DNA of 20,710 bases from positions 1 through 20,710 of IMG/VR virus record IMGVR_UViG_3300046000_003751; one strand, written 5' to 3'. This stretch comes from a virus. Below, piece after piece: positions 5,539 to 12,361 of the stretch. The notes beneath the pieces were generated by a model. That model saw nothing but the letters and a program-made list of their open reading frames with translations, was not told the origin of the DNA and ran no database searches. The position numbers were made by a program, and so were the translations under genes. Position 1 is the first letter of the stretch. Each line of letters opens with the position of its first letter.

Positions 5539-7344
5539 ATGGCTTTCGATCCCGATGCTTATTTGGCTAAGACCGCCCCTACAGCGGCGCCGGCGGCAAA
5601 AACACCCGCCGCTAAGTTTGACCCCGACGCATATTTAGGGACATCGCCTGAAGGTATGCCGCTTGCGCGGCAACCGGATTGGGCGCAGACAAGCCCTAAC
5701 TTATATAGAGCCGCCACTACTGCGCGTGAATATTTGGGGCCAACTATAGAGGCATTAGGCGCAGCAGGCGGCGGTGTGTTAGGTACAACACTAGGTCCAC
5801 TTGGGACGGTTGCAGGCGCTGGCTTAGGGTATGGCATAAGTAAAGAATTGTTGCAAGGCGCAGATGTAGCGTTAGGTCTTAAGCCTCCGCGTACGCCATA
5901 TCAAACAGTTCAGCAACCCGCACAAAACGTCATGGAAGGCGCTTTTTTTGAGGGCGTTGCGCCTGTAGTAATTCAAGGCGGCGCGCGGTTGTTTGACGTC
6001 GGTCAACGTAACGCATTAAAAGCTAAAAAGATAGTTACTGAAACATTAGGCGGCGTGGATACGCCAGCCGTGCGCAACATGCTTACCCGTGCGGGCGATG
6101 ATGTAACTGCTGCACAAGCGCTAGAGGGTATTGATAAGCCAGCGTTCCAAGCGTTAGCTGAACGTGTAAGCGGTCGCACAGTAAGTGCTGCGGGGTCAAA
6201 ATATACTACGCAAGAAGCGCAAGAAGCTGCACGACGCGTTGGAATTAAAAGCGTTACGCCAAATTTGGTTGAAAGCATCAAAATGCGTGACCAAATATCG
6301 CGCCCATTTTATGAAGCGGCTGACAAAGCCGTTGTTAAAATTGACGACGAATTAAAAACCATTTTTGACCGTATGCCAGAGGGCACGTTAAAAGCCGCCG
6401 CTGACATAGCAAAAATGGAAGGCCGCCCATTTATTATGGGCGCTGCCAAACCCGCCGGATCAGTGCCAACAGGGCTAGTCGATGCCGCGGGCAATCCGAT
6501 TATGAAACAAACATCTGCTGAAATTCCTGAAATTACCGGCGAGTCAATGCACTTTATTAAGCGCGCGTTGTCAGACATAGCTAACGCGCCGGCATCCCAA
6601 AAAGGGATTGGACGCGATACGCAAGCGGCGGCCAAAGGCGTTTTAAATGATTTCATAACTAGTTTTGAAGCGCGCGTTCCTGATTATGGAACCGCTCGTA
6701 ATTTATTTTCAGAAGCGTCAGGGCCAGTCAATCAGTCTAAAGTTTTGGACGCCATGATGAAAGTGCTTGATCAGCCTGGTGGCGGCGAGCGGGTAATGCC
6801 GTTCCTAAATGCGCTAGGTCGTGGCGAAACAGCGTTGCTTAAGCGTTCTACTGGTTTTCCTCGCTACGAAACTGGCGACTTGACCAAGATATTAACGCCC
6901 GAACAGATGGGCGCTGTAGACGACGCAGTCAAACAAATGACGCGCGATATTCGCATATCCGATCAAGCTACCACAGGCCGCGAAGCGTTGGCTGACGTGT
7001 TAAAGGGCAACCTAAAATTGTTCCGTTTACCTACAACGCTGAATTTCAAAGGCACAATTGCTAATGAAATGTTAGCTAAAATTGAGGGTAAAGTTGGCGA
7101 CAAGGTAATGAATACTTTGACCGATTCGCTTAAGACCGCAAAAACGGCCGAAGAATTGTTGTCTGTGTTGCCCGCGCATGAGCGCATTAAAGTTCTCAAT
7201 ATTATGTATGACGTTGCCGGTAGCGCTGCGCCAGCTCAACGCGCTTTGCGAACCGGCGCAAAAGTAGCGGCTACGCAAGAAGAACCCACAAACAACCTTG
7301 CCCCATTAACACTTTTCCAAAACCGTAATTCGTTGAGGCCGTAA
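5539..7344 (+). CDS. Putative ejection protein with FDPDAYL repeats and glycine zipper
   Basis: 601 residues. The N-terminus carries the motif FDPDAYL twice (residues 3-9 and 27-33), separated by an Ala/Pro/Thr linker, a feature common in long phage virion proteins. Residues about 69-102 form a glycine-zipper segment (ALGAAGGGVLGTTLGPLGTV then AGAGLGYG) typical of membrane-inserting ejection proteins. The rest is mostly helical with no catalytic signature that I recognise. The gene begins two bases after the previous stop, and its stop overlaps the next start as TAATG. As the third and last of the long helical proteins before the lysis cassette, it parallels P22 gp16 or T7 gp15/16 in position only. 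A transglycosylase or protease motif was looked for and not seen. Confidence 0.65.
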   Translation: MAFDPDAYLAKTAPTAAPAAKTPAAKFDPDAYLGTSPEGMPLARQPDWAQTSPNLYRAATTAREYLGPTIEALGAAGGGVLGTTLGPLGTVAGAGLGYGISKELLQGADVALGLKPPRTPYQTVQQPAQNVMEGAFFEGVAPVVIQGGARLFDVGQRNALKAKKIVTETLGGVDTPAVRNMLTRAGDDVTAAQALEGIDKPAFQALAERVSGRTVSAAGSKYTTQEAQEAARRVGIKSVTPNLVESIKMRDQISRPFYEAADKAVVKIDDELKTIFDRMPEGTLKAAADIAKMEGRPFIMGAAKPAGSVPTGLVDAAGNPIMKQTSAEIPEITGESMHFIKRALSDIANAPASQKGIGRDTQAAAKGVLNDFITSFEARVPDYGTARNLFSEASGPVNQSKVLDAMMKVLDQPGGGERVMPFLNALGRGETALLKRSTGFPRYETGDLTKILTPEQMGAVDDAVKQMTRDIRISDQATTGREALADVLKGNLKLFRLPTTLNFKGTIANEMLAKIEGKVGDKVMNTLTDSLKTAKTAEELLSVLPAHERIKVLNIMYDVAGSAAPAQRALRTGAKVAATQEEPTNNLAPLTLFQNRNSLRP

Positions 7345-7565
7345 TGGATTCACAAATGCTTTTCAACATTGCGATTGGTTTGGCGTCGTTCTTCGGTGGT
7401 TGGGTGCTGAACAACATCACCAAAGCAATTGATCGCTTGGATAACGACGTGCGTAAGATGCCGATGGTCTACATTAGCAAAGACGAGTACCATCGCGACA
7501 TCGCCGAAATTAAAACCATGCTTGGCAAGATTTTTGACAAGCTTGACAATAAAATGGACAAGTAA
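7344..7565 (+). CDS. Small membrane protein, first gene of the lysis cassette (holin/antiholin-like?)
   Basis: 73 residues. One N-terminal membrane segment (residues 6-24, LFNIAIGLASFFGGWVLNN) is followed by a charged helix ending in a coiled-coil-like tail (EIKTMLGKIFDKLDNKMDK). Such one-helix proteins are common beside holin genes in tailed phages; I do not know a characterised member. Start and stop are both fused to neighbours as TAATG. GAGG five bases upstream is a good ribosome site. Context points to lysis timing (holin, antiholin or pinholin partner), but it could also be a small virion-associated membrane protein. The tail would face the cytoplasm if the N-terminus is outside. Confidence 0.6.
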   Translation: MDSQMLFNIAIGLASFFGGWVLNNITKAIDRLDNDVRKMPMVYISKDEYHRDIAEIKTMLGKIFDKLDNKMDK

Positions 7566-8206
7566 TGGCCACCGCTAGAAGGCCCGCAACAAGGGCTAGA
7601 AAAGCAGCGCCGCGCGACACAACAGATAAGATTCTTGACCTGATCAAGTGGGTGGACAACCCGTTCAAGCTTGTTTCGGTCATCCTACTGTCTACCATTG
7701 CCTTCACCGGATACTTTGCGTGGGATAGCCGTCAGGTCATCTTGGCTGCAATCAAGTCCAGCAACTCAATGCCACAACTAAAAGATCATGAACAGTTGCT
7801 TCCTCTGGCAAACGCTTTAGTTAAAGAAGTAAGCGCTATCGGTGTTGTGGTTAATAAGGTCAATCTTGCAACAAACAGCCGAACGACGGTATTAGCTATT
7901 GCAAACGGTGAGCGCAACCACAAACTCGAAGGTTTAACAGTCAGCCTGTTTGCCGCCAGCCCTGAGCGCAATGCAGATGTAGTCTCAATGTTAAACAACG
8001 AAGTAGCGTGTAAGCCGTTTGAGTCATCTAGCCCCGTCGGTGAGTGGGCAAAGCTGATGGGTGTTACTTACATGTGCAGGGCTTCAATACCCAATGAGAT
8101 TGGCAAGTTTGCTGGGTACATTGCTGTAGGCTTTAAGTCTGAGCCACGGGACTTGATATCCGTTAAGACCCGAATGATATTAGCCGCATCGGAGATGGAC
8201 AAATGA
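7565..8206 (+). CDS. Candidate holin with T4 gpT-like topology
   Basis: 213 residues. A basic N-terminus (ATARRPATRARKAAPRD) and a short helix precede a single membrane span at about residues 36-54 (LVSVILLSTIAFTGYFAWD). A periplasmic domain of about 155 residues with two Cys (149 and 171) follows. This is the layout of T4 holin T (218 aa: about 34 cytoplasmic residues, one span, about 160-residue periplasmic domain with a disulphide). From memory the strongest local match is VTYMCRASIPNEIGKFAGYI against the YMYSCP...YAGTITM stretch of T4 T. In T4 this domain binds antiholin RI and controls lysis timing. The gene is fused to both neighbours (TAATG, ATGA). Homology to T is my inference; it could be an unrelated single-span envelope protein. 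Confidence 0.5.
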   Translation: MATARRPATRARKAAPRDTTDKILDLIKWVDNPFKLVSVILLSTIAFTGYFAWDSRQVILAAIKSSNSMPQLKDHEQLLPLANALVKEVSAIGVVVNKVNLATNSRTTVLAIANGERNHKLEGLTVSLFAASPERNADVVSMLNNEVACKPFESSSPVGEWAKLMGVTYMCRASIPNEIGKFAGYIAVGFKSEPRDLISVKTRMILAASEMDK

Positions 8207-8289
8207 AAACAAAATGGGAAGCACTCAAGGCTTGGTGTAGCGCCAAGTGGACAGCAACTAAAGCATGGTTTTCAAACGTGAGGCTCTAA
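8203..8289 (+). CDS. 28-residue Trp-rich cationic peptide in the lysis cassette
   Basis: ATG 8203 overlaps the holin stop as ATGA and has GGAG eight bases upstream; TAA ends at 8289, just before the next gene. The peptide has four Trp (5, 11, 16, 22), five Lys, one Arg and one Glu. Residues 4-14 and 15-25 are an 11-residue tandem repeat of the form KWxAxKAWxSx. On a helical wheel the Ala residues gather on one face, with Trp and Lys on the other. There is no hydrophobic span long enough to cross a membrane, so it would lie on or disrupt a bilayer. It resembles cationic antimicrobial-type lysis peptides (the disruptin idea), but there is no sequence homology I can name. The Shine-Dalgarno and tight packing make translation likely; the function is inferred. 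Confidence 0.6.
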   Translation: MKTKWEALKAWCSAKWTATKAWFSNVRL

Positions 8290-8290
8290 T

Positions 8291-8722
8291 ATGTTACCGA
8301 TAATGGATATCCTTGGCATCGGCATGAAGGTTCTGGATAAGTTCTTTCCCGATCCTGAACAAAAAGCAAAGGCTCAGCTAGAGCTAATGCAGATGCAACA
8401 GAACGGTGAGCTTGCTAAGATGCAAGCCGACATGCAAGAGCAAGGCGAGCTGACCAAGCGCCAAGAGAACGACATGAAGTCCGACTCATGGCTCTCTAAG
8501 AACATCCGCCCCATGACGCTCATTGCGATCCTTGCCGGCTACTTTACGTTTGCCATGATGAGCGCGTTTGACATGGAAACAAACAAAGCGTACGTCGAAC
8601 TGCTTGGCCAGTGGGGCATGTTGATCATGTCGTTCTATTTTGGTGGCAGGACGTTGGAAAAGATTATTGATATGAAAACTAAAGAAAAAGTCACTGAAGC
8701 GGAGATTAAAAATGCAAAGTAA
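8291..8722 (+). CDS. Holin of the GTA/3TM type
   Basis: 143 residues. An N-terminal amphipathic helix (MDILGIGMKVLDKFFPDPEQ) and a Gln/Met/Glu-rich helix are followed by SDSWLSKNIRPMTLIAILAG, the signature of the 3TM holin family first described for gene-transfer-agent release. Hydrophobic spans lie at about residues 74-93 and 103-120, and the tail is charged (KEKVTEAEIKNAK). Holins of this type make lesions that let a cytoplasmic endolysin reach the peptidoglycan, which fits the signal-less muramidase encoded next. GAGG seven bases before ATG 8291 supports the start. The gene overlaps the endolysin by 11 bases. This is the best-supported holin of the cassette. Confidence 0.8.
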   Translation: MLPIMDILGIGMKVLDKFFPDPEQKAKAQLELMQMQQNGELAKMQADMQEQGELTKRQENDMKSDSWLSKNIRPMTLIAILAGYFTFAMMSAFDMETNKAYVELLGQWGMLIMSFYFGGRTLEKIIDMKTKEKVTEAEIKNAK

Positions 8723-9257
8723 CTGGAATAAGTCGTTTGATTTAATGATCAAGAGCGAGGGTGGCTTTAGCGACGACCCCCGCGATGATGGCAACAAACT
8801 GCCAGACGGTCGCCCAGGCTCAACCATGTTGGGCGTCACGCAATACAATTGGGAAGCGTGGACAGGCCATCAGGTCACGCATGAGCAGATGAAGAAGCTT
8901 ACGCCAGAAGACGTTAGACCATTCTACAAACGGAAATTCTGGGATATATGTCGTTGCGACGAGTTACCATCACCCATTGACTATCTGGTGTTTGACATCG
9001 CGGTTAATGGTGGCCCAGGCCGTGCCGGTAAGCTATTGCAAGAGTGTGTTGGCGTGCCGGTCGATGGTGGGATTGGCCCTATCACTTTGGCTGCCGTTGC
9101 CAAACAAGACGTAAACGAATTGATCGACAAGTTCTCGGCCGCCAAAGTGGACTTCTACTTGGGTCTAAACAATCCTGTTTATGAAACAGGTTGGTTAAAC
9201 CGTGTCAAGCATGTGCGGACTGCCGCGCTTGGGATGGTGGACTCCAACCAAACTTAG
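8712..9257 (+). CDS. Endolysin, GH108 N-acetylmuramidase with C-terminal PG-binding domain
   Basis: 181 residues. The GH108 catalytic domain spans about residues 8-95. The probable catalytic Glu is E16 in KSEGGFSDDPRDDG, with TMLGVTQYNWEAWTG and FYKRKFWDICRCDELPSPID following. A peptidoglycan-binding type 3 domain begins near YLVFDIAVNGGPGRAGKLLQ and continues through the conserved VDGGIGPIT. The enzyme hydrolyses the MurNAc-GlcNAc bond of peptidoglycan. No signal peptide or SAR segment is present, so it stays cytoplasmic until a holin acts. GGAG seven bases upstream of ATG 8712 is a strong ribosome site. The last 53 bases overlap a small gene on the opposite strand. No Rz/Rz1 pair follows or is embedded in this gene. 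Confidence 0.9.
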   Translation: MQSNWNKSFDLMIKSEGGFSDDPRDDGNKLPDGRPGSTMLGVTQYNWEAWTGHQVTHEQMKKLTPEDVRPFYKRKFWDICRCDELPSPIDYLVFDIAVNGGPGRAGKLLQECVGVPVDGGIGPITLAAVAKQDVNELIDKFSAAKVDFYLGLNNPVYETGWLNRVKHVRTAALGMVDSNQT

Positions 9258-10186: not shown

Positions 10187-11511
10187 TTCAACGCCTCCAT
10201 AGCGATATCAGACACGGCGCGCTTGTTGTGTAGCGCCGCCCAAATTTTCTCATCAACGGTTTTGTTGGTAAGCAACACGTACACCCACACGTCATGCTTC
10301 TGGCCCGAGCGGTGCAGACGCCCTACGGTTTGTTCGAACAATTCAAGACTCCAAGGCAGTGACAGAAAGACCATCCGGCAACCGCCGTGTTGCAAGTTAA
10401 GCCCATGTCCGGCTGACTTGGGGTGGACAAGAAGCAACTCCACCTCTCCCTTATTCCAGCGCTCGATAGCGCGGTCATCGTCAAGGGTAAGGGCGTGCTT
10501 ATAGCGGCGCTTGAGCTCGGCGAGCTCTTCCTTGTACGTGTACGCGATGATTGTGTTGGCATGTTGGTTCTCCTGTATTAGATCGTCGAGTAGTTCAAAC
10601 TTGTGGCGGCTAAACCAGATAGGCGTCTGCGTTGTCACAAACTTGCCTGGTGCTAACGGGTTGGGCTTGACTGACGTGTCGTACACAAACCCAGACGCCA
10701 TTTGTTGCAGCTTGCCTGTCACAACCGCAGCGTTCACCGCCTCGATCTGCGTATCGCCATACTGCAACACAAAATCTTTTTTCATTTGGTTGTACTCGAT
10801 CATCGGCATATCGCAGCGCAGCTCGACCGTGTGACAGGGCGCAAGCTTGTCTGCATACTCACCAGGCTCAAGCAAGTACGTTGCAGGGCGAATGACGTCC
10901 ATGACCATCTTGAGCGAGCCAGCGCGAGGCGCCCACTCGCCATACTCGGGGTTCATCAGCACAAAATACTTCTGCATAAACGCGCCCTTGCTGCGCCCAA
11001 GCAAGCTCTGGTCCACGATTTTGCATTGGCCGAACACGTCTTCTAGGCCATTCGAGGTAAACGATCCGGTCAAGCCCCAACGAATACGCATCTTGTCGAT
11101 GATCTTAAACAACGCCTTGAACCGTGCGCCTGACGGGTTCTTAAGCCTTGTCAGTTCGTCAAACACCACGCCATCAAAGTCCAATTCTTGCTTGGCTAAC
11201 CATTGCAGATTGTCGTAGTTGGTGACGACCACGTCAGCCGTAAGTGCTGCCAACCGTTGCTTGGGCGTGCCCACGGCCACCGCAATGTCAAGCTTAGGCG
11301 CCCACTTAGGGGCTTCAACCGGCCAGACGTCAGTTGCCACACGCTTAGGCGCCAACACTAGCCACCGGTGCACCACTCCCTTGTCAAGCGCGTCTTGCAT
11401 GGCGGTGAGTGTGATGGCCGTCTTACCCGCGCCCACAGGCGCTAACACCATTGCACGATCATGTTCGTACAAAAAGTCAGCCGCTTCGTTTTGGTAGGGT
11501 CTAAGATTCAA
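10183..11511 (-). CDS. SNF2-type DEAD/DEAH helicase
   Basis: 442 residues. The superfamily 2 motifs are in order: Q-like LRPYQNEA near the start, Walker A APVGAGKT (24-31), motif Ia LVLAPKRV, motif II FDELTRLKN (DE at 118-119), motif III GLTGSFTSN, and in the second RecA domain HPKSAGHGLNLQHG and motif VI QTVGRLHRSGQKHDVWVY (394 onward). GRxHRxGQ is typical of SNF2-like ATPases. Phage members usually sit with VRR-NUC, PolA and DUF2800 genes in the replication module and probably remodel DNA or protein-DNA complexes. The start is TTG 11511 with GAGG six bases upstream, overlapping the methyltransferase by 11 bases. Length is normal for the phage version, which lacks the extra domains of cellular SNF2 proteins. 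Confidence 0.9.
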   Translation of the reverse strand: MNLRPYQNEAADFLYEHDRAMVLAPVGAGKTAITLTAMQDALDKGVVHRWLVLAPKRVATDVWPVEAPKWAPKLDIAVAVGTPKQRLAALTADVVVTNYDNLQWLAKQELDFDGVVFDELTRLKNPSGARFKALFKIIDKMRIRWGLTGSFTSNGLEDVFGQCKIVDQSLLGRSKGAFMQKYFVLMNPEYGEWAPRAGSLKMVMDVIRPATYLLEPGEYADKLAPCHTVELRCDMPMIEYNQMKKDFVLQYGDTQIEAVNAAVVTGKLQQMASGFVYDTSVKPNPLAPGKFVTTQTPIWFSRHKFELLDDLIQENQHANTIIAYTYKEELAELKRRYKHALTLDDDRAIERWNKGEVELLLVHPKSAGHGLNLQHGGCRMVFLSLPWSLELFEQTVGRLHRSGQKHDVWVYVLLTNKTVDEKIWAALHNKRAVSDIAMEALK

Positions 11512-12361
11512 GATACGCCTCTATAAAGGTTTGCGCGGCTTGCGGGACGATGGCGTTGCCGTAGGCGCGCAAACGTCCCACTCTGGCGGTAGACCCATAA
11601 GCCAACGGGAATGTGCTGGGTTCAACTGGGCGCGTTTTGCCGTCGGTGCAGTCGATCCAATCGGCGGCTCCCCAGAAACCAGACGTACCGCATTGGGCAA
11701 TTCGCTGTTCTTGTGTTTCGCCGCCCCCGCTGACCCCCGACCGTCCGCTCTGAGCGGTGTCGGCCAACTCGCTAGATGCGCCTCGTCCCTTAGTTTGTAC
11801 TTGCCCGCTGTCCCTGGGCGTATCTCCATTACGCCGCCCTCCCCGTCCGACTTTTGAGGGCTGCGCCACGAAGTACAGTCTGTGTCGGATATGCGGCGCA
11901 CCGACGCCCGCAGCAGGAATACCTGCAGCCCCGACGATATAATTTTCTCTTTCCAAGTCATTTTGAACAAGATCGAGCCATCCGTGTTTAATCGCGCTTT
12001 CAACTTGTTCGCCAAAGATAACGTCAGGTCGGCACTGCTGGATAAGTTCAAACCATGCGGGCCACAAGTGTCGTTCGTCAGTGACGCCGGCGCCTGCTCC
12101 GGCAATGCTAAAGGGTTGGCAGGGGCAACTGCCTGTCCAGACAGGTCGGTCGTCTGACCATCCTGCGTTTCGCAAAGCGTGGCTCCAGACGCCGATCCCT
12201 GCGAAGAAATGGCACTGGGTATATCCTTTAAGATCGTTTGCTTTAACATCCACAATACTCCTTGTGTCTACGTCGCCTGGCGCGATATGCCCAGCCGCAA
12301 TTAGGTTACGCAACCATTCGGCGGCGTATAAATCTATTTCGTTGTAATAGTTAAGACCCAT
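11501..12361 (-). CDS. C5-cytosine DNA methyltransferase
   Basis: 286 residues. Motif I is [11 protein letters not shown] (from residue 53). Motif IV is GSCPCQPFS with catalytic C81. Motif VI is GEQVES (117-122, Gln in place of the usual Asn of ENV). Motif VIII is [12 protein letters not shown], and motif X is [10 protein letters not shown] (265-274). It transfers a methyl group from S-adenosylmethionine to cytosine C5. The Gly/Ser-rich target-recognition stretch (about 170-245) is short and of unknown specificity. Residues 1-45 form the extra N-terminal segment seen in phage Dcm-like enzymes. AAGGAG lies eleven bases before ATG 12361. There is no restriction partner, so self-protection against host restriction is the likely role. 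A second long frame runs through this gene on the same strand. Confidence 0.92.
11521..12249 (-). CDS. Overprinted ORF inside the methyltransferase gene (+1 frame), own ribosome site
   Basis: The +1 frame of the methyltransferase gene, same strand, is open for 242 codons from ATG 12249. A consensus AAGGAG (12258-12263) lies eight bases upstream. The product starts [20 protein letters not shown] and contains [41 protein letters not shown] and C-terminal [20 protein letters not shown] followed by [10 protein letters not shown]. From memory this matches an unnamed family common in phage proteomes (DIPSA, LTWK, LRAS.RR.S, WLMG.PPEWD). Its APANP and CAPTATPSS blocks are the shifted readings of methyltransferase motifs IV and X, so resemblance could be a by-product of methyltransferase conservation. 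The correctly placed Shine-Dalgarno and length favour a real dual-coded protein. Function unknown. Confidence 0.5.

Follow-up and report, generated by a model that had tools for sequence, protein, structure and literature searches.

A predicted family of Trp-rich cationic microproteins in the lysis cassettes of freshwater tailed phages

By what means phages that lack a spanin breach the outer membrane of their Gram-negative hosts is an open question (PMC6139136, PMC12819732). The disruptin, gp28 of phage phiKT, was found in a spanin-less phage, as the work of Holt et al. (2022, J Bacteriol 204:e00214-21) is summarized in PMC12819732 and PMC9239132, and PMC12819732 describes disruptins as short antimicrobial helices of amphipathic character. 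In phage T4, two antiholins, one periplasmic and one cytoplasmic, control holin T (PMC11413866).

A lysis cassette and its 28-residue micro-ORF

The window, by which we mean the whole stretch of DNA analyzed (20,710 nucleotides; a complete 20.7-kb database record that is itself a fragment), carries a lysis cassette in which a 73-aa protein with a transmembrane (TM) segment and coiled coil, a 213-aa protein, a micro-ORF, a GTA_holin_3TM protein, and a GH108 endolysin follow one another:

7344..7565, plus strand: 73-aa TM and coiled-coil protein at the cassette head (PHROG 462 "lipoprotein," E 1.4e-9; weak match to PHROG 9316, holin)
7565..8206, plus strand: putative 213-aa T4-T-like class III holin (PHROG 31287; predicted structure; BFVD class III holins)
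8191..8194, plus strand: GGAG ribosome site of the micro-ORF, 8 nt before its ATG and invariant in the alignment
8203..8289, plus strand: micro-ORF for a 28-aa cationic Trp-rich protein (ATGA overlap with the upstream gene; conserved; coding test)
8212..8244, plus strand: first 11-residue repeat, KWEALKAWCSA (tandem repeat comparison)
8245..8277, plus strand: second 11-residue repeat, KWTATKAWFSN, which decays in relatives
8291..8722, plus strand: 143-aa holin of the GTA_holin_3TM family (PF11351, E 2.3e-11; PHROG 3427, holin)
8712..9257, plus strand: GH108 endolysin with PG_binding_3 and no evident signal peptide (PF05838, E 4e-23; PF09374; PHROG 315)

Translation of 8203–8289 on the plus strand gives MKTKWEALKAWCSAKWTATKAWFSNVRL, with four Trp, five Lys, one Arg, and one Glu (net charge +5), in agreement with the four-Trp, five-Lys, 28-residue peptide described in a sequence-only reading of the window. 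Both translation signals named there, a ribosome site and ATGA coupling, are present: GGAG lies at 8191–8194, and the start codon shares bases with the TGA of the 213-aa gene (7565–8206) in an ATGA. KWEALKAWCSA and KWTATKAWFSN are a true tandem repeat, identical at 7 of 11 residues at lag 11—a level reached by 0.18% of same-composition shuffles (P = 0.0018)—and agreeing at 19 of 33 nucleotides. No signal peptide, lipobox, or TM segment was found in the peptide: it lacks the signal or TM anchor of spanins and the lipobox of o- and u-spanins, and 28-mer and 20-mer alike lack the one or more transmembrane helices that define a holin (maximum 15-residue hydropathy −0.03 and −0.23, respectively).

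The 213-aa protein has a basic N terminus, one TM segment, and a GAF-fold C-terminal domain with two invariant Cys, as judged from an AF2 model and alignment. The best structural alignments of the model are with T4 holin T (6px4_B, Z 13.5; 6psk_T, 13.4; 6pxe_B, 13.3), entries that rank at the top, although other GAF domains come within one Z unit and so tie with them; among the BFVD matches are Proteus and Serratia phage proteins annotated as class III or T holins. Its layout fits that of T4 T, with a cytoplasmic N terminus, one TM segment, and a folded periplasmic C-terminal domain, even though the fold match is shared with other GAF domains. The fold alone is no proof, and because of size, TM segment, and cassette position we read the gene as most likely a T4-T-like class III holin. 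Such holins, with the GAF-fold C-terminal domain, are widespread among freshwater phages beyond the T4 group (L001–L080); when bacterial genomes were scanned with the T-like profile for a host or prophage link, no relative came up. A 91–95-aa protein with a signal-like N terminus and two invariant Cys adjoins the T-like holin at L056:4601–4888, L066:3257–3532, L075:4638–4922, and in their relatives. It is a candidate RI-like antiholin only by position and signal-like N terminus; the 95-aa protein gives a confident all-helical model (pLDDT 88), but the matches listed for it included no PDB entry and no T4 RI.

Elsewhere in the window, a 244-codon open frame on the minus strand (11521–12255) lies wholly inside a C5-cytosine methylase gene (11501–12361), in another frame of the same strand; it has a protein-like composition and no Pfam match.

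Conservation, coding, and exchange

About 45 locally distinct freshwater viral cassettes keep the micro-ORF frame at the corresponding place. A viral contig scan with the 213-aa protein yielded 80 loci, the closely related ones mostly carrying the micro-ORF, and DNA patterns independent of that neighbor yielded 46 and 9 contigs; removal of local duplicates left about 45 cassettes, a figure that may miss divergent members since relatives were sought with DNA patterns. Encoded lengths are restricted to 20, 28, 29, or 31 aa, and all length changes are in-frame. The 28-mers come in more than 20 variants; 20-mers include MNWIKEKWAQLVEWFKGLKL and MTYLKAKWAQFVAWFKGLRL, the 29-mer reads MIWINEKWAAFKAWCIRAKDWIKSQIIKG, and the 31-mer starts like a 20-mer and ends like a 28-mer. 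The Lys, Trp, Cys, and Phe residues hold their positions whereas the remainder change, and all four lengths share a KW/W pattern.

Across 28 distinct alleles encoding 28-mers, 41 base changes from the consensus create no stop codon (P = 0.005) and include an excess of synonymous changes over random placement (P = 0.023). The ratio pN/pS is 0.46, and it is lowest in the annotated frame, which led us to reject coding in another frame. An RNA element inside the ORF was likewise rejected: Folding energy equals that of shuffles (z about 0), and 0 of 27 pairs are compensatory. An Rfam search of the window gave no match. Judged from these alignments, ORF 8203–8289 is a genuine gene and more than a chance ORF, and the conservation in related phages that the sequence-only reading had proposed as a check is borne out. 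The 11-residue duplication it had emphasized is real in the window but is not conserved: Many relatives have Arg or Ser in place of the last Trp, in the second repeat, which means that the duplication as such is not strongly selected, and the 20-mers have a single unit. The 20-mer and 31-mer forms suggest that the 28-mer arose by duplication of one unit.

Searches of Pfam and PHROGs with the peptide gave no significant match, and sequenced phage isolates gave chance matches only (E of 2 or worse). By sequence comparison, the micro-ORF is a genuine member of a new, undescribed family of cationic, Trp-rich microproteins (20–31 aa) of freshwater tailed phages. The family is new among lysis-cassette accessory proteins, and so small a gene, shuffled independently between lysis cassettes, can easily be missed by automatic annotation.

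Divergence along the cassette indicates that the micro-ORF has a history of its own. Synonymous divergence is 0.23 in the micro-ORF vs. 0.47–0.73 in the flanking genes, and third-position identity falls at both ends of a stretch from about −20 to +88; an RNA-structure signal does not explain the low divergence of this stretch. Alleles are identical over 84 bases in the pair L039/L046, whose flanks differ by 22% and 36%, and in the pair L013/L019, whose upstream gene differs by 26%; some mosaics could be metagenomic assembly chimeras, and single cases are to be read with that caveat. The micro-ORF is cleanly absent from five relatives (L048, L247, L249, L252, and L265), in which the holin begins at the same ATGA. 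On these patterns, the micro-ORF evidently moves between cassettes as its own module. At L031:4639–4989, a predicted 116-aa protein separates the T-like holin from the micro-ORF, whose own ribosome site is retained.

The micro-ORF could also be a mini-moron, a small module hitchhiking in the late operon and aimed at a non-lysis target such as a host protein or defense system. The L039/L046 identity, synonymous divergence far below that of both neighbors, and optional presence all fit it. Morons sit at many places, however, whereas the micro-ORF was seen nowhere but immediately ahead of a holin-type gene in the lysis cassette, and possible chimeras weaken the mosaic argument; we consider this origin rather unlikely. 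The junctions on both sides of the micro-ORF (ATGA, TAATG, or TAAnATG), together with the low synonymous divergence, could also mark a translational spacer that mainly sets the coupling, and through it the dose, of the downstream holin relative to the upstream gene, its peptide being incidental. The retained Lys, Trp, Cys, and Phe positions and the pattern common to all length variants argue against a spacer, as do RNA structure no stronger than in shuffles and relatives such as L048 that couple the holin directly; a spacer is thereby the least probable of the readings considered here, and distinctly so.

Spanins and the 3TM-holin module

The sequence-only reading had noted no visible spanin in the cassette and proposed that the peptide supplies the outer-membrane step. 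The first statement is true of the window, in whose cassette the search turned up no Rz1-type lipoprotein ORF, but the window is only a fragment. An Rz1-type scan of the large contigs of four micro-ORF relatives (G001, G003, G004, and G005) returned no convincing gene, its few matches being weak TTG-start or out-of-cassette ORFs; the same scan recovered Rz1 in 8 of 8 positive-control loci and nothing in phiKT. Seven micro-ORF records searched for an L020-type Rz elsewhere gave no match, in a search run without a positive control.

Spanin genes do occur beside the micro-ORF. Three cassettes (L020, L283, and L285) are ordered T-like holin, micro-ORF, 2TM protein, Rz with embedded Pro-rich Rz1 lipoprotein, and GH108 endolysin, the Rz/Rz1 calls being made from anatomy (TM segment plus coiled coil; embedded lipoprotein) and weak PHROG spanin matches; in L284, the end of the micro-ORF precedes the same 2TM–Rz/Rz1–GH108 block. 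Conversely, none of the 227 loci with a 3TM holin has Rz/Rz1 (0 of 202 where at least 1.5 kb downstream is visible), with or without the micro-ORF, vs. 30 of 50 T-like loci that lack the 3TM holin. Because the tally contains redundant and related contigs, and some of the Rz loci had been retrieved with an Rz query, a Fisher test on it does not give a true probability. Across cassettes L001–L308, the GTA_holin_3TM gene and Rz/Rz1 are mutually exclusive, with the 3TM gene apparently standing where a 2TM plus Rz/Rz1 block would otherwise be. Neither a Trp-rich micro-ORF nor an Rz1-like gene was found in MW202753 and MW202879, two complete circular 3TM-holin genomes. Because Rz/Rz1 is missing from 3TM loci with or without the micro-ORF, these distributions suggest that spanin absence goes with the 3TM-holin module rather than with the peptide. 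The peptide had looked like a ready answer to spanin-less lysis; the comparison turns attention to the 3TM-holin cassette.

The idea of a disruptin that replaces a missing spanin is therefore weakened and survives only in part: A coupled, cationic, Trp-rich gene of the lysis cassette exists as claimed, but Rz/Rz1 stands beside it in L020, L283, and L285. A role as a simple substitute for an absent spanin is not supported, since 3TM cassettes lack Rz/Rz1 regardless of its presence, the duplication decays, and the 20-mers carry a single unit. A broader disruptin-like role, in which a cytoplasmic peptide destabilizes the outer membrane after holin opening and wall cutting, alone or as a spanin helper, draws on its short length, cationic charge (+2 to +6), Trp content, and place in the lysis cassette, on the absence of an Rz1-type gene from the window and the four scanned relatives, and on the archetype phiKT gp28, which is also cationic and sits between endolysin and holin. 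Opposed to it are the coexistence with Rz/Rz1, the two complete genomes with neither gene and the indifference of spanin-less 3TM cassettes to the micro-ORF, a lack of sequence similarity to gp28, and some 20-mers with a charge of just +2. The helical moment of the 28-mers is not above that of shuffles on three scales, for which we rejected a strong amphipathic antimicrobial helix. We hold this role to be unlikely, if marginally less so than the moron origin. A related reading, also unlikely, is that ultra-short (20–31 aa) cationic Trp-rich peptides are shuffled between freshwater phage cassettes as auxiliary membrane disruptors, beside a spanin pair or a spanin-less 3TM-holin cassette; if true, disruptin-type peptides would be a shuffled accessory, not a spanin replacement.

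A possible role in lysis timing, and known systems

The most constant feature of the micro-ORF is what follows it. A multi-TM holin-type gene lies directly downstream in 45 of 45 cassettes, either the 3TM holin (42) or an unrelated 2TM protein (3), and a T-like holin is present in 40 of 45, mostly directly upstream. In L151, a TM and coiled-coil gene precedes the micro-ORF and the T-like gene is absent from the 18.8-kb record, so the T-like holin cannot be a universal partner. In other phages (L153–L179, L216, L067–L073, and L082:5889–5999), unrelated single-TM micro-ORFs of 24–36 aa, Trp-containing and often with an acidic N terminus, take up the same slot, either ahead of the 3TM holin or behind the T-like one.

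Positions 1, 5, 8, 12, 16, 19, 23, and 26 of the 28-mers are nearly all bulky and hydrophobic, forming an 80-degree, Lys-flanked stripe with 3-4-4 spacing. This stripe is significant in 28-mers (P = 0.0002–0.003, post hoc) and not in 20-mers, and it would fit a short helix that lies along a membrane or packs against a second helix.

Our best guess, tentative and unproven, is that the peptide is an inner-membrane-associated accessory of lysis timing, an antiholin or holin modulator; helix formation, membrane binding, and holin modulation are each inferred steps. Translational coupling would produce the peptide just before the holin-type gene, a short helix might attach to the inner membrane on its cytoplasmic side, or to a holin located there, and the peptide could thereby tune the triggering time of the neighboring holins. 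We favor lysis timing because the micro-ORF adjoins holins whose prototype, T4 T, has two antiholins. Its invariable place before multi-TM holin-type genes of two unrelated kinds, mostly after a T-like holin, the use by related phages of unrelated micro-ORFs in the slot before the same holin, and a peptide that combines the stripe with no signal, lipobox, or TM segment all point the same way. Clean presence or absence fits an optional tuner, and coexistence with Rz/Rz1 means that the micro-ORF need not be the outer-membrane step. Weighing against a timing role, antiholin activity is backed by neither experiment nor homologue, L151 lacks the T-like gene, the downstream holins are of two kinds, the helical moment is unexceptional, and net charge and Trp content fit a membrane disruptor equally.

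Compared with known systems, the micro-ORF resembles phiKT gp28 (56 aa and net +7 by the same count, read from JN882298) as a short cationic peptide (here 28 aa, net +5) with no signal or TM segment, encoded in the lysis cassette beside a holin gene. It differs in being half as long (28 vs. 56 aa), in showing no similarity, and in its Trp-rich 11-residue repeat; its relatives carry Rz/Rz1, whereas the disruptin, in the available summaries of its description, comes from a spanin-less phage, and comparison across the micro-ORF family does not support replacement of an absent spanin. With the two-component spanin Rz/Rz1 it shares lysis-cassette location; unlike those proteins it has no signal peptide, lipobox, or TM segment, and the two stand side by side in three cassettes. 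The T4 antiholin RI has a signal sequence and is far longer than the micro-ORF, which has none and to which no homology is shown; RIII is also far longer. The pairing of T with an antiholin is not matched in L151, where the micro-ORF occurs without a T-like gene, and an RI-like trait appears instead in other relatives, in which the 95-aa protein with a signal-like N terminus comes after the T-like gene. Like antiholins, the micro-ORF is encoded next to a holin, and as T4 has T with RI and RIII (PMC11413866), so the gene directly upstream of the micro-ORF is T-like in fold and layout.
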